A DNA stretch of 36,069 nucleotides from IMG/VR virus record IMGVR_UViG_3300006733_000029, positions 1 through 36,069 of that record; one strand, 5' to 3'. The first letter of the stretch is position 1; every line of letters begins with the position of its first letter. The translations under genes were made by a program, and so were the position numbers. Below, one piece after another: positions 29,172 to 35,234 of the stretch. The DNA comes from a virus. The notes under the pieces are model-generated. The model made no database searches. It saw only the letters and a list, made by a program, of their open reading frames with translations, and was not told where the DNA came from.

Positions 29172-29954
29172 ATGAACAAAACAAAAATCGAGTGGACAGA
29201 CTACACATGGAACCCGATAACTGGCTGCACCAAAGGTTGCAGCTATTGTTATGCACGGAAGTTGGCAAACGGTCGGCTAAAAGATAACATGCTTATCAAT
29301 ATGATTGTTGCCAAAGCCCACGAAAGGTCTATCAAATCAGCCATTGAGGACCCGTTTACGCCTCGCTTCTGGCCGAACCGGCTGAATGATGTAAACGTAA
29401 AGACACCGAGAAAGATATTCGTATGTAATATGGGTGATATGTTCGGTGATGAGATACCGGATAGCTGGCAACAGCTTATCTTTACTGCAATCAAAGCCAA
29501 CCCCCAACATACATTCCAACTACTTACCAAACAACCGCAGAACCTACCTAAATGGTCGCCGTACCCTGATAATTGTTGGGTAGGCGTAAGCGCTACAAAC
29601 GAAATTCAATATCTCAGGGCTATTGAACAATTAAGGTTGATTGAAGCAAAAACGAAATTCATTAGCTTTGAACCATTACTAGAAAGCATCCCTGTAACTA
29701 ATGGATTACTAGCCGTTGATTGGGTTATCATAGGTGCTCAGACAAAGCCTGATAAAGCCGTGCCGATAGAGTGGATACAAGATATAACCAACGCTTGCGA
29801 CAGGGCAAAAGTACCCGTGTTTTTGAAGAATAATTTGAAGAGGGCCAGCTTACACCCTGATGGTAAATATAGACAGGAGTTTCCAAATGAAGAGGCTATC
29901 GTTTACGCAAGAGAACCTAAAAAAGTTTTTATCTTGCCAAAAATCGCAAACTAG
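29172..29954 (+). CDS. Gp37/Gp68-family (DUF5131-like) phage protein with radical-SAM-type cysteines
   Basis: The N-terminus KIEWTDYTWNPITGCTKGCS followed by YCYARKLA is the hallmark of the phage Gp37/Gp68 family; Cys19, Cys23 and Cys26 form the CX3CX2C pattern of radical SAM iron-sulfur enzymes. Further typical segments are IFVCNMGDMFGDEIP, TFQLLTKQPQNL, WVGVSATNE, KFISFEPLLE and WVIIGAQT. Length (260 aa) is normal for the family. The reaction is not known to me; such enzymes might modify DNA, RNA or a small molecule. The 3' end overlaps the ASCH-like gene by 68 bases and the stop is TAG. Confidence 0.85.
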   Translation: MNKTKIEWTDYTWNPITGCTKGCSYCYARKLANGRLKDNMLINMIVAKAHERSIKSAIEDPFTPRFWPNRLNDVNVKTPRKIFVCNMGDMFGDEIPDSWQQLIFTAIKANPQHTFQLLTKQPQNLPKWSPYPDNCWVGVSATNEIQYLRAIEQLRLIEAKTKFISFEPLLESIPVTNGLLAVDWVIIGAQTKPDKAVPIEWIQDITNACDRAKVPVFLKNNLKRASLHPDGKYRQEFPNEEAIVYAREPKKVFILPKIAN

Positions 29955-30606
29955 GCGAGTTATCACCGCCGGGACCAGTACGGTTTGCGGTTACAACGTA
30001 TCTAGTAAATATTTTAGTGGCCTCCAATGGGACAGTCGTGTATATAAAGATAGCGGACCACATATCTTACACCCATTCCCTAGCGGGTATCTGCATGTGC
30101 CATTCATAGAACCAGATGGGACAGATGATGGGCGAGTCTTCAGAGTGCGTGCAAGGCTTGAGATTGATGATAAGTTTTGGGTCCCAGAGAAGCACATACT
30201 CGCAGTTGATTTTAGCAACCACAATACCATGCTTTCAGTCAGGTGTTTGTATGCAGATGGGGAAACGAGGGAATGGAACCCTAAAGATATCCCTATGAAA
30301 GCATATGAAAAGCTATGGGACTATGAGGGCAGACAACCTATGTTGCGACCATATATATTTATGTTTGAGTTCATGCACCGCTACGAGGGAATAATCACCA
30401 GTGTCGGCGGTGAACGGTTGCAGGATATAAGTTACAACGATACGGTGGCAGAGGGCATTGATAAACAATATGGCATTTGGGGATTTCAAGTGCTTTGGGA
30501 CAGCATAAACGGCAAACCTAAAAAAAAGAAAGATGGCACAGTTATAGATAATTCATGGAAAACTAACCCTTGGGTATGGAAATATGGGATAAAGCCAATA
30601 TGCTGA
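29887..30606 (+). CDS. ASCH-like phage protein (239 aa)
   Basis: ATG at 29887 is chosen because AGGAG lies 7 bases upstream; it starts inside the preceding gene. The N-terminus MKRLSFTQENLKKFLSCQKS followed by QTRRVI is the typical opening of phage ASCH-like proteins (T-x-E-x2-x-x-[IL]-x-[GS]-x-K-x-Q-T-R-R). Other matching segments are KFWVPEKH, GERLQDISYNDTVAEGI and FQVLWDSINGK, ending NPWVWKYGI. ASCH domains are thought to bind RNA or modified bases. Its end overlaps the methyltransferase start (ATG at 30600, TGA at 30604). Confidence 0.72.
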   Translation: MKRLSFTQENLKKFLSCQKSQTRRVITAGTSTVCGYNVSSKYFSGLQWDSRVYKDSGPHILHPFPSGYLHVPFIEPDGTDDGRVFRVRARLEIDDKFWVPEKHILAVDFSNHNTMLSVRCLYADGETREWNPKDIPMKAYEKLWDYEGRQPMLRPYIFMFEFMHRYEGIITSVGGERLQDISYNDTVAEGIDKQYGIWGFQVLWDSINGKPKKKKDGTVIDNSWKTNPWVWKYGIKPIC

Positions 30607-32300
30607 AGCACTTTGACTTGTTTAGTGGCATAGGTGGTTTTGCCCTTGCAGCACATTGGGCTGGCTTCCAAACCGTAGGGTTTGTTGAGATCGACCAGTA
30701 TTGCCAAAAGGTGCTGAAAAAACATTGGCCAAACGTGCCGATAGTAGAGGATATACATGACAGAGAAAAAATCAAAGAAGTCGCCGGACAAGTTAATACC
30801 GACACCATCAGCGACACCGAGGGGACCGCACTCAGGCAGAAAGTTGACCAAGGGCGGTCAGACAATCAGCCACACGACAGGGACCGCTTGGGGTCCGACC
30901 CTGGAGACATACGCGAAGCTCTATCCGACACCGACAGGTTCGCAAGCGAGGTCCGAGGGGATGATAAAGATGATGAGGGCGAAAGTGGAAGCAGGGGAGA
31001 TAACGAGAGAGGAAGCCGAAGCGATGATACAAGGGTCACTGGAACCGAACCGCATGGAACCGATAAAAGAGAAAGAGGGCAGCCAACAGTTGACCTTATT
31101 ACCGGCGGGTTCCCTTGCCAACCTTTTAGTGTCGCCGGGAAGCAAACAGGCACAACAGACGACCGTTACCTCTGGCCAGCAATGCTCAATGTCATTAAAG
31201 ACCTCAGACCAACTTGGGTACTTGCTGAAAACGTTGTCGGCATCAACAACATTCTTTTCCCGGCTACAACTGCTGAAATGGAACTTGCTGCCCTTCAAAG
31301 TTTTCAGGACTGTGACATACGGTTTATCTCTGAGTTCGAGAAGCATAGTCAAACAGAAATTAAGTGGAAGATTGTTCAAACCCGAATACTGGATGAAATT
31401 ATCCAAGACCTTGAAAAAGCGGGATACGAAGTTCCACGAACTAAACAAGGGCAACCCGTCCTATTATGTATTCCAGCTTGTGGCGTCAACGCCCCCCACC
31501 GACGATATAGGTACTGGATTGTGGCTAGGAACACCGAGGGCAACCGAGGCGAAGAGAAGTCACGAGTTCCGCAAGGGGCGGACACCGAGCCCGGAAGAGT
31601 TTGTGGACCAAGAACCGCAGAAGTTGTGGGCAACCCCACAAGCGATGGACAGCAGATCAGACACGAGGAAACCGGAAGAGAGGTCGGACGCAGCGAACAA
31701 GGGCGGTTGTTCCAACTTGAGGGAACAAGTGATGTGGCCGACACCGCGAGTGGGGGGACAAGAGGGATACGAAACGAGAGCGAAGCGGAAAGGTCACGAT
31801 GTAGCGATGAACTATCTGGAGAGTGCGGTGGAACACGCGGAAATGCTACCGACTCCAACTCAGAGGGATTACAAGGACACGCTGAACAGCCGGCCCAACA
31901 AGCAGGAACACTTGACCGACCGGATACGGAAACTCCTGCCGACTCCGAAGGCATTGGAAGTGGACGAAACACCGGAACAATGGGAGAAGAGACGTCAGAA
32001 TCCCAAAGCAAAGCAGATGGGACCGAGCTTGTCAGTAGCAGCAAAGATGTTGCCGACAATGACAGGGGACGATGCGAAGAACAATGCGGGTCCGAGCCAG
32101 TACAATCGACTGTCGAATGGGAAGCCGAGGGCGTTGAACCTCAATGCGGAGATTGGTGGGGCATTGAACCCAACGTGGGTAGAGTGGCTCATGGGATACC
32201 CGCTAGGGTGGACCGACTTAAAGGACTTGGAAACGCCATTGTCCCCCAAGTAGCGTATGAAATACTCAGAATAATAGCGGAGATAGAGACTATTGGCTAA
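30600..32300 (+). CDS. C5 cytosine DNA methyltransferase (frame A of a dual-coding region)
   Basis: ATG at 30600 (MLKHFDLFSGIGGF) is the usual family start; longer readings from ATG 30576 or TTG 30570 are possible. Motifs: I DLFSGIGG at 6-13, IV GGFPCQPFS at 169-177 with catalytic Cys173, VI ENV at 210-212, VIII HRRYRYW at 300-306, and X GLGNAIVP at 542-549. The product (566 aa) methylates cytosine in an unknown sequence, for modification or protection from restriction. Residues 60-163 and 312-515 are long hydrophilic, low-complexity inserts (rich in D, E, G, S, R, T) where the +1 frame codes for a second protein. The motif I to IV distance (about 160) is about twice normal. The TAA overlaps the next start by 8 bases. 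Confidence 0.88.
   Translation: MLKHFDLFSGIGGFALAAHWAGFQTVGFVEIDQYCQKVLKKHWPNVPIVEDIHDREKIKEVAGQVNTDTISDTEGTALRQKVDQGRSDNQPHDRDRLGSDPGDIREALSDTDRFASEVRGDDKDDEGESGSRGDNERGSRSDDTRVTGTEPHGTDKRERGQPTVDLITGGFPCQPFSVAGKQTGTTDDRYLWPAMLNVIKDLRPTWVLAENVVGINNILFPATTAEMELAALQSFQDCDIRFISEFEKHSQTEIKWKIVQTRILDEIIQDLEKAGYEVPRTKQGQPVLLCIPACGVNAPHRRYRYWIVARNTEGNRGEEKSRVPQGADTEPGRVCGPRTAEVVGNPTSDGQQIRHEETGREVGRSEQGRLFQLEGTSDVADTASGGTRGIRNESEAERSRCSDELSGECGGTRGNATDSNSEGLQGHAEQPAQQAGTLDRPDTETPADSEGIGSGRNTGTMGEETSESQSKADGTELVSSSKDVADNDRGRCEEQCGSEPVQSTVEWEAEGVEPQCGDWWGIEPNVGRVAHGIPARVDRLKGLGNAIVPQVAYEILRIIAEIETIG
30757..32253 (+). CDS. Overlapping +1-frame PTP-repeat protein inside the methyltransferase gene (498 aa)
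   Basis: This frame has ATG at 30757 with AGAGG 6 bases upstream and runs 498 codons without a stop inside the methyltransferase gene. About eight short repeats centred on [LMW]-P-T-P occur near residues 13, 55, 257, 290, 326, 363, 393 and 431 (LYPTPTGSQARSEG, MWPTPRVGGQ, MLPTPTQRDYKD, LLPTPKALE). Near the C-terminus it reads LNPTWVEWLMGYPLGWTDL, a phrase I recognise from many phage and prophage hypothetical proteins. Residues 110-250, opposite catalytic motifs IV-VIII, lack repeats. Length, ribosome site and ordered repeats make chance unlikely. Function unknown. Confidence 0.7.
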   Translation: MTEKKSKKSPDKLIPTPSATPRGPHSGRKLTKGGQTISHTTGTAWGPTLETYAKLYPTPTGSQARSEGMIKMMRAKVEAGEITREEAEAMIQGSLEPNRMEPIKEKEGSQQLTLLPAGSLANLLVSPGSKQAQQTTVTSGQQCSMSLKTSDQLGYLLKTLSASTTFFSRLQLLKWNLLPFKVFRTVTYGLSLSSRSIVKQKLSGRLFKPEYWMKLSKTLKKRDTKFHELNKGNPSYYVFQLVASTPPTDDIGTGLWLGTPRATEAKRSHEFRKGRTPSPEEFVDQEPQKLWATPQAMDSRSDTRKPEERSDAANKGGCSNLREQVMWPTPRVGGQEGYETRAKRKGHDVAMNYLESAVEHAEMLPTPTQRDYKDTLNSRPNKQEHLTDRIRKLLPTPKALEVDETPEQWEKRRQNPKAKQMGPSLSVAAKMLPTMTGDDAKNNAGPSQYNRLSNGKPRALNLNAEIGGALNPTWVEWLMGYPLGWTDLKDLETPLSPK

Positions 32301-34054: not shown

Positions 34055-34455
34055 TGAATATAATAGTATATGTCGAACCAGCAGCCAAGCAACGACCGAG
34101 AGCTAGTTCATATAAAGATGGCGACAAGGTGCGGACCCGCGTATATACACCAAGCAAAACAGTTAAGCTAGAAATGCAAATCAGGAACGAGGCTATGAAA
34201 ACAGGCATCAAGTTCCCGGCCGGCTGTCCGTTGAGGCTTAACGCGGACTTCTATATAGAGAAGCCCAAAAGCATACCCAAGAAAGTCCTCAAGCCGGTGA
34301 AACGACCTGATATAGACAATATGCTTAAGGTTGTCTTGGATGCCCTGAACAAATACGCTTACCATGATGATGCCCAAATAGTCCGACTAACCGCGAACAA
34401 GTATTACGGCAGCCCACCGCGAATAGAAATCGATATAACTGATTGGACCGACTGA
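34051..34455 (+). CDS. rusA: RusA-type Holliday junction resolvase
   Basis: The 134-residue product matches RusA in size and pattern: N-terminal MNIIVYVEPAAKQRPRASSY, a basic middle (KPKSIPKKVLKPVK), and the catalytic stretch KRPDIDNMLKVVLDALNKYA followed by YHDDAQIV, with Asp87, Asp89 and Asp106/107 in the places of the family's metal-binding acids. It cleaves branched DNA made by recombination and replication, useful before packaging, and fits next to RecT and the replication genes. Its TGA overlaps the next ATG (TGATG). Confidence 0.9.
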   Translation: MMNIIVYVEPAAKQRPRASSYKDGDKVRTRVYTPSKTVKLEMQIRNEAMKTGIKFPAGCPLRLNADFYIEKPKSIPKKVLKPVKRPDIDNMLKVVLDALNKYAYHDDAQIVRLTANKYYGSPPRIEIDITDWTD

Positions 34456-35234
34456 TGAGTGTTCTGCAACTTAACTTCGATGGCAAGAACAAGATAGAGG
34501 TAGCCATTGAGAGGATAAAGAACTTTGAACCACCTGAAGGATACTATCTTGCATTCTCTGGTGGTAAAGACAGCATTAGCCTCTTGAACTTGGCTGTAAC
34601 CGCAGAAGTTAAGTTTGATGCGCACTATTCACCGACCACGATAGATCCACCGGAACTGGTGCGGTTTATCCGGCGTAACTATCCCCAAGTCCACTTTGAG
34701 AAAGTAAGGAAGTCTATCTTTGAGAATATACTTACTCGCGGTTTGCCTATTGCCCAAAAGAAGTGGTGTTGTGCCGAGTATAAAGAACAGCACGGCAATG
34801 GGCGTATCGTTTTGACCGGCATCCGTTGGGCGGAATCATCCAGGCGTTCAGCAAGGCAGATGGTTGAACCATGCTATAAGACTTCAAAGCGTTATGTGCA
34901 TCCTATGATAGATTGGGACAACCAGGAGATATGGGAATATATAAGGTTTACCGAGTTAGAATATTGTTCGTTATATGATGAGGGTTTTAAGAGGATTGGT
35001 TGTGTCTTGTGCCCTAACCAATCATATGAACACAAACAACGAGATATAAAACGCTGGCCGGATATTGCACGCCGGCTGAGAAAAGCCACGAACAAGTTAT
35101 ATGATAAGAGAGTAGCCGAGGGAAAAGAAAGTGTCAAAAGATGGCCTGATGGCGACGCAATGTTTGATTGGTGGACCGGGCGAGAAAGTTCCGTGAAGCT
35201 AGACACCGATGGGGAGTTGTTTGCATTCGATTAA
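34455..35234 (+). CDS. PAPS-reductase-like (PP-loop) protein with likely iron-sulfur cysteines
   Basis: ATG 34455 overlaps the RusA stop; a TTG at 34443 is in frame but less likely. The product (259 aa) has the PP-loop SGGKDS at residues 35-40, TTIDPPELVRFI near 61-72, the GIRWAESSRRSAR motif near 122-134, and cysteines 105, 106, 183 and 186 (WCCAEYK, GCVLCPNQ) spaced as in proteins with an iron-sulfur cluster, including DndC-type sulfur-transfer proteins. It would activate a substrate with ATP or handle sulfur. Whether it makes 3'-5' DNA phosphorothioate or serves metabolism is open; no other dnd-type gene is visible. Confidence 0.78.
   Translation: MSVLQLNFDGKNKIEVAIERIKNFEPPEGYYLAFSGGKDSISLLNLAVTAEVKFDAHYSPTTIDPPELVRFIRRNYPQVHFEKVRKSIFENILTRGLPIAQKKWCCAEYKEQHGNGRIVLTGIRWAESSRRSARQMVEPCYKTSKRYVHPMIDWDNQEIWEYIRFTELEYCSLYDEGFKRIGCVLCPNQSYEHKQRDIKRWPDIARRLRKATNKLYDKRVAEGKESVKRWPDGDAMFDWWTGRESSVKLDTDGELFAFD

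Follow-up and report, generated by a model that had tools for sequence, protein, structure and literature searches.

The gene for the small polypeptide of M.EcoHK31I lies inside that for the large polypeptide, in another reading frame. In M.EcoHK31I (YGGCCR) the large polypeptide carries motifs I–VIII and X and the small polypeptide motif IX only, whilst the predicted recognition domain has been assigned to the large subunit (PMC3404938). The C5 methyltransferase M.AquI also consists of two polypeptides and is split within the variable region, its second subunit having motif X too. In the literature searched we found no publication on nested phage methyltransferase genes. A nested pair is present in the record of Paenibacillus larvae phage Shelly (gp55/gp56), in which gp56 is annotated as "g55 internal gene" and no function is proposed for the overlap.

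Here we analyzed a 36-kb virus record (36,069 nucleotides, hereafter the window) in which a C5 cytosine methyltransferase frame (A) contains a second long frame (B) at +1. By the published description of M.EcoHK31I, the window pair shares its division of motifs (I–VIII and X against IX), but differs in that the constraint on the recognition region lies in B, the frame of the small subunit (dN/dS 0.31, against 1.18 for A), and in that B is much longer and bears both a repeat array and an N-terminal module. Unlike in M.AquI, motif X is located in A. The Shelly pair is likewise nested, but its B has about half the length and lacks the N-terminal module.

Layout of the locus

The methyltransferase gene has phage replication genes as neighbors, which code for replication protein O, a helicase loader-like ATPase, RusA and PAPS reductase. 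Frame A (Table 1) matched Pfam PF00145 at 5.8e-33 and phrog_363 at 9.6e-67, and all of the C5 cytosine methyltransferase motifs I, IV (PCQ), VI (ENV), VIII (RxR) and X (GN) were located in it. Motif IX was sought in the A chain and was absent, sitting in B instead. The stop codon of A occupies 32298–32300, and its start overlaps the stop codon of the upstream gene (30604–30606) as ATGCTGA, suggesting that A may be translated in a coupled manner with that gene. Frame B matched phrog_1008 at 6.3e-32, and its top family matches were phage "DNA methyltransferase" groups. Eight PTP-type motifs occur in B (residues 14, 56, 257, 291, 327, 364, 394, and 432). The DNA at 31504–32163 reads in A as an unconserved low-complexity linker. 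B carries LNPTWVEWLMGYPLGWTDL at its C-terminal end, where the same DNA gives GRVAHGIPARVDRLKGLGN in the A frame. A preliminary description of this DNA had noted the methyltransferase frame, the 498-codon second frame with AGAGG 6 bases before its ATG, about eight LPTP-type repeats, and an end of B whose DNA doubles as the methyltransferase end motif, and in all of these respects the two frames proved to be as described.

Two further features of the region were observed. The DUF5131 gene (29172–29954) and the next ORF (29860–30606) lie in different frames and share 95 bases (29860–29954) when the ORF is taken from its first ATG, although it may start later. Close downstream of the methyltransferase, the window has a PAPS-reductase-like gene (34443–35234), as do two Bacteroides phages and the mycobacteriophage ShiLan (coordinates in relatives: L002, 2860–3765; L008, 3034–3906; L004, 2231–3079). 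This recurrence may be functional or may merely be shared phage gene order.

Table 1. Features of the nested methyltransferase locus, in window coordinates.
Feature	Position	Strand	Details and basis
Putative subunit A: C5 cytosine methyltransferase, motifs I–VIII and X	30600..32300	+	566 codons, ATG at 30600; PF00145, phrog_363
A motif I, DLFSGIGG	30615..30638	+	alignment A1
AGAGG, Shine-Dalgarno-like	30746..30750	+	ends 6 bases 5' of the B ATG
Putative subunit B: +1-frame protein within A, predicted recognition region and motif IX	30757..32253	+	498 codons; phrog_1008, shuffle test
A residues 60–163, insert separating motifs I and IV	30780..31091	+	low-complexity in A
A motif IV, GGFPCQPFS, catalytic Pro-Cys	31104..31130	+	alignment A1
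A motif VI, ENV	31227..31235	+	alignment A1
A motif VIII, RRYR	31500..31511	+	alignment A1; selected frame passes from A to B past here
Predicted B recognition region, six PTP-type modules	31504..32163	+	dN/dS; match to variable region of fused enzymes
B motif IX, LNPTWVEWLMGYPLGWTDL	32164..32220	+	hhalign to fused enzymes, probability 97%
A motif X, LGNAIVP, overlaps B end	32226..32246	+	alignment A1

Distribution of the pair and selection on the two frames

A search of viral contigs with B returned at least 597 relatives, the best 80 of which formed the B-found viral set. All 80 of these loci had A in frame 0 with B in the +1 frame, and among the best 80 none had B without an overlapping A; by motif pattern, 63 of the 64 classifiable loci were nested and 1 was fused. 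Viral and bacterial loci were also searched for with A as the only query. Every A-found locus with a placeable motif IV (57 viral, 75 genomic) gave a B-profile match at +1. As part of the B-profile score stems from DNA conserved by A, a stricter test was based on motif IX, which was found at +1 in 98/100 A-found relatives where it could be placed. Of the A-found viral loci, 50 were nested, 0 were fused, 7 were unclear and 22 could not be classified; the genomic loci comprised 48 nested and 2 fused ones, along with 12 unclear and 18 unclassifiable ones. The nested fraction is no census, as nested members had supplied the A query. The nested arrangement is also present in named phages.

In a tree of motifs I–VIII, 30 fused and split rows formed one clade with 99% local support, and 118 nested rows, from phages and from bacteria of at least eight phyla, lay outside it; the root of this tree is arbitrary and it gives no direction between nested and fused forms. 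The nested arrangement appears to be old and to be common both among phages and in the genomes of bacteria. Split pairs of mycobacteriophages, such as Arturo gp76/gp75 and Smooch gp7/gp6, show a third arrangement, with partial overlap, and look nearer to M.AquI. The records of Arturo, Smooch and ArV1 each list two adjacent, partly overlapping "DNA methylase" genes (L169, 649–1744; L170, 598–1543; L171, 406–1876), which, in the mycobacteriophages at least, look like halves of one enzyme, not two methyltransferases.

Nested pairs from different genera of Paracoccaceae and Roseobacteraceae (L291–L317) share about 91–93% nucleotide identity with both frames fully open, suggesting recent transfer or double-frame constraint. 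An Escherichia coli prophage copy (L331, 2500–3261) is annotated as a pseudogene, and in this one copy a single stop point breaks both frames.

Substitutions were counted in 42 largely independent pairs of 70–97% identity, a few of them from the fused class. At A codon positions 1/2/3 there were 240/155/385 substitutions upstream of B, 347/188/709 over motifs IV–VIII and 1448/705/775 from motif VIII to the end. Position 1 of A is position 3 of B, and the wobble therefore moves from A to B at motif VIII. The dN/dS was also calculated for 34 nested pairs. Before B begins it was 0.25 for A; over motifs IV–VIII it was 0.20 for A (bootstrap interval 0.16–0.24) and 1.02 for B, and from motif VIII to the end 1.18 for A and 0.31 for B (0.25–0.37). 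These Nei-Gojobori values come from a simple counting method that is biased in overlapping frames, and for this reason single-frame relatives were used as a control. In the fused control the wobble stayed at position 3 throughout (368/333/600 after motif VIII) and the +1 frame after motif VIII contained 1–9 stops. The frame under selection thus changes from A to B at motif VIII. Both frames are open beyond chance and under purifying selection, which is strong in each frame's own half only. The first ~100 residues of B, over motifs IV–VIII, show no clear protein-level constraint. The synonymous rate of A falls there from 0.55 before B to 0.31, a greater drop than that of the fused control's position-3 rate over the same step (0.40 to 0.33), which is suggestive of weak constraint on the B leader.

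The preliminary description had proposed a real overlapping gene pair in which repeats and catalytic motifs avoid each other, and the switch of the constrained frame at motif VIII bears this out. It had named stops in the +1 frame of relatives, or a lack of purifying selection on that frame, as evidence against such a pair. Homologs of B do lie in the +1 frame of other methyltransferase genes, nested relatives keep that frame open with its motif IX, and B is constrained after motif VIII.

Start and identity of B

We consider it very probable that A (motifs I–VIII and X) and B (recognition region and motif IX) are two subunits of one split C5 methyltransferase. The start of B was sought by scanning from the opening of its frame to motif IV for ATG or GTG codons with a Shine-Dalgarno sequence of at least 5 bases. 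A strong Shine-Dalgarno sequence with a start was present in the +1 frame of 56/159 non-redundant loci, compared with 1 locus for the +2 frame and 2 for frame 0 (by start codons: 56/350, 1/142, and 2/121, respectively); typical examples in relatives are AAAGGAGATAGGCAATGA. Because strong Shine-Dalgarno sequences precede B-frame starts, these signals favor independent initiation of B rather than frameshifting, although only this minority of the loci (56/159) carry a strong one.

A +1 ribosomal frameshift near motif VIII would instead give an A-B fusion (motifs I–VIII, recognition region, and IX), with full-length A giving motif X. The change of selected frame at motif VIII is in keeping with this, as are the single-frame relatives, which join exactly these parts, and the little constrained B leader over motifs IV–VIII. 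Set against the strong starts upstream in the B frame, with only 1–2 in the other frames, a B that is open far upstream of the switch point, and a fusion product that would be without motif X, frameshifting seems improbable.

The identity of B was examined through relatives that have the whole enzyme in one frame, found in actinophages and Streptomyces (ShiLan gp70, prophiGD91-2 gp27, L090). These have the same parts in the same order as the window pair (I–VIII, PTP region, IX, X), but in one frame and one protein, with the +1 frame broken past motif VIII. Against the fused enzymes, the A profile aligned to positions 5–165 only (E 4e-56) and the B profile to positions 222–372, which comprise their PTP region together with motif IX (probability 97%, E 5e-11; hhalign). 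One fused protein matches both phrog_363, the family of A, and, over residues 188–381, phrog_1008, the family of B. Relatives with motif IX in frame A have a broken +1 frame. The M.HhaI sequence LHPRECARVMGYPDSYKV was collinear with motif IX of B in a profile alignment whose score is too low to stand alone. No solved structures similar to B by sequence were found. An AlphaFold model of B alone had a mean pLDDT of 50.5 and was informative only for a helical hairpin and for the helix of motif IX. The fused-enzyme model resembles M.HhaI (E 2e-14), and its N- and C-terminal parts are confident and its PTP region low-confidence. These alignments indicate that B most likely holds the target-recognition region and the motif IX that A is without.

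Might B be a separate protein that merely overlaps the methyltransferase, for example a regulator or an antirestriction factor? Its conservation and its own start signals would suit such a protein. However, B aligns with the part of single-frame methyltransferases that holds the recognition region and motif IX, A is without motif IX, the +1 frame is broken where frame A has motif IX, and the best 80 B-found loci include no B without an overlapping A, all of which makes this very unlikely. The preliminary description had suggested a partner, regulator or antirestriction protein. The partner has held up, as the bearer of a predicted recognition region and motif IX; for an independent regulator or antirestriction protein there was no match in support, the best families being "DNA methyltransferase" groups, and this candidate was rejected.

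Still less likely is a decaying methyltransferase in which compensating indels have put the recognition region out of frame, leaving B as a relic. The A reading of the recognition region does look unconstrained (dN/dS 1.18), but B is conserved over the same region (0.31), both frames would not stay open in such a case, and the state is old, with 118 tree rows across phages and at least eight bacterial phyla.

When synonymous codons of A were shuffled, the longest +1 frame had a mean of 132 codons and a maximum of 354, compared with 501 observed, and 0/20,000 trials gave a frame as long. Codons drawn at the usage of other window genes gave a maximum of 247, and +1 frames within those genes run to 32–66 codons. 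In the reciprocal shuffle of B, A was open over its length in 0/5,000. A chance frame arising from codon bias, which the preliminary description had weighed and thought very unlikely, gains something from the G+C-rich low-complexity inserts that lower stop frequency, but given these shuffles, the conservation of B and its start signals, we rejected it as the least credible reading of all.

A predicted split enzyme and its possibly modular subunit

For the split methyltransferase we propose that A, in frame 0, would provide cofactor binding and catalysis (motifs I–VIII), with motif X closing the large domain. B would begin independently inside A, from its own Shine-Dalgarno sequence and ATG in the +1 frame, and would bring motif IX and, in its PTP modules, the target-recognition region as the small, DNA-reading domain. 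The two chains would then assemble into an active heterodimer. The A reading of the recognition DNA would be mainly a linker, held open so that motif X stays attached. From the sequence we infer that B is produced and binds A, that both chains are required for methylation, and that specificity lies with the modules. Probably the phage methylates its own DNA with the split enzyme against host restriction; no restriction gene was identified among the neighbors searched.

In the B reading, the insert at A residues 60–163 is an N-terminal module of two PTP motifs and the helical hairpin (B residues 61–95), whose blocks reach pLDDT 70–98 in the model of B alone. L172, which is the nearest relative (61% identity across 148 columns), has a comparable extension. 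Downstream of motif VIII the number of PTP motifs ranges from 0 to 9 across loci, a variation that would fit a modular recognition array. It is conceivable, though we hold it only tentatively, that B is a modular recognition subunit in which PTP number varies and modules may be placed at either end; phages could change or stack specificities and the catalytic chain would tolerate the insertions, the window module being an enlarged permissive loop of A. If this is true, the evolution of one frame reshapes the enzyme of the other.

An enzyme of this kind is already known from characterized restriction-modification enzymes, a few of which resemble the nested arrangement. What is new is its wide spread, the placement of the predicted recognition region within the nested subunit, and the extra N-terminal module of B in the window. 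In phages, C5 methyltransferases are commonly annotated in one frame only, or with both genes as "DNA methyltransferase", and one subunit is often missed; A cloned alone would then yield a false negative. The results suggest looking for the recognition domain of split enzymes of this kind in the small nested subunit. Because single-frame and partly overlapping relatives serve for comparison, the origin of the overlapping genes is directly testable in this nested pair, which seems unusually old and widespread and whose two products make up the halves of one enzyme.
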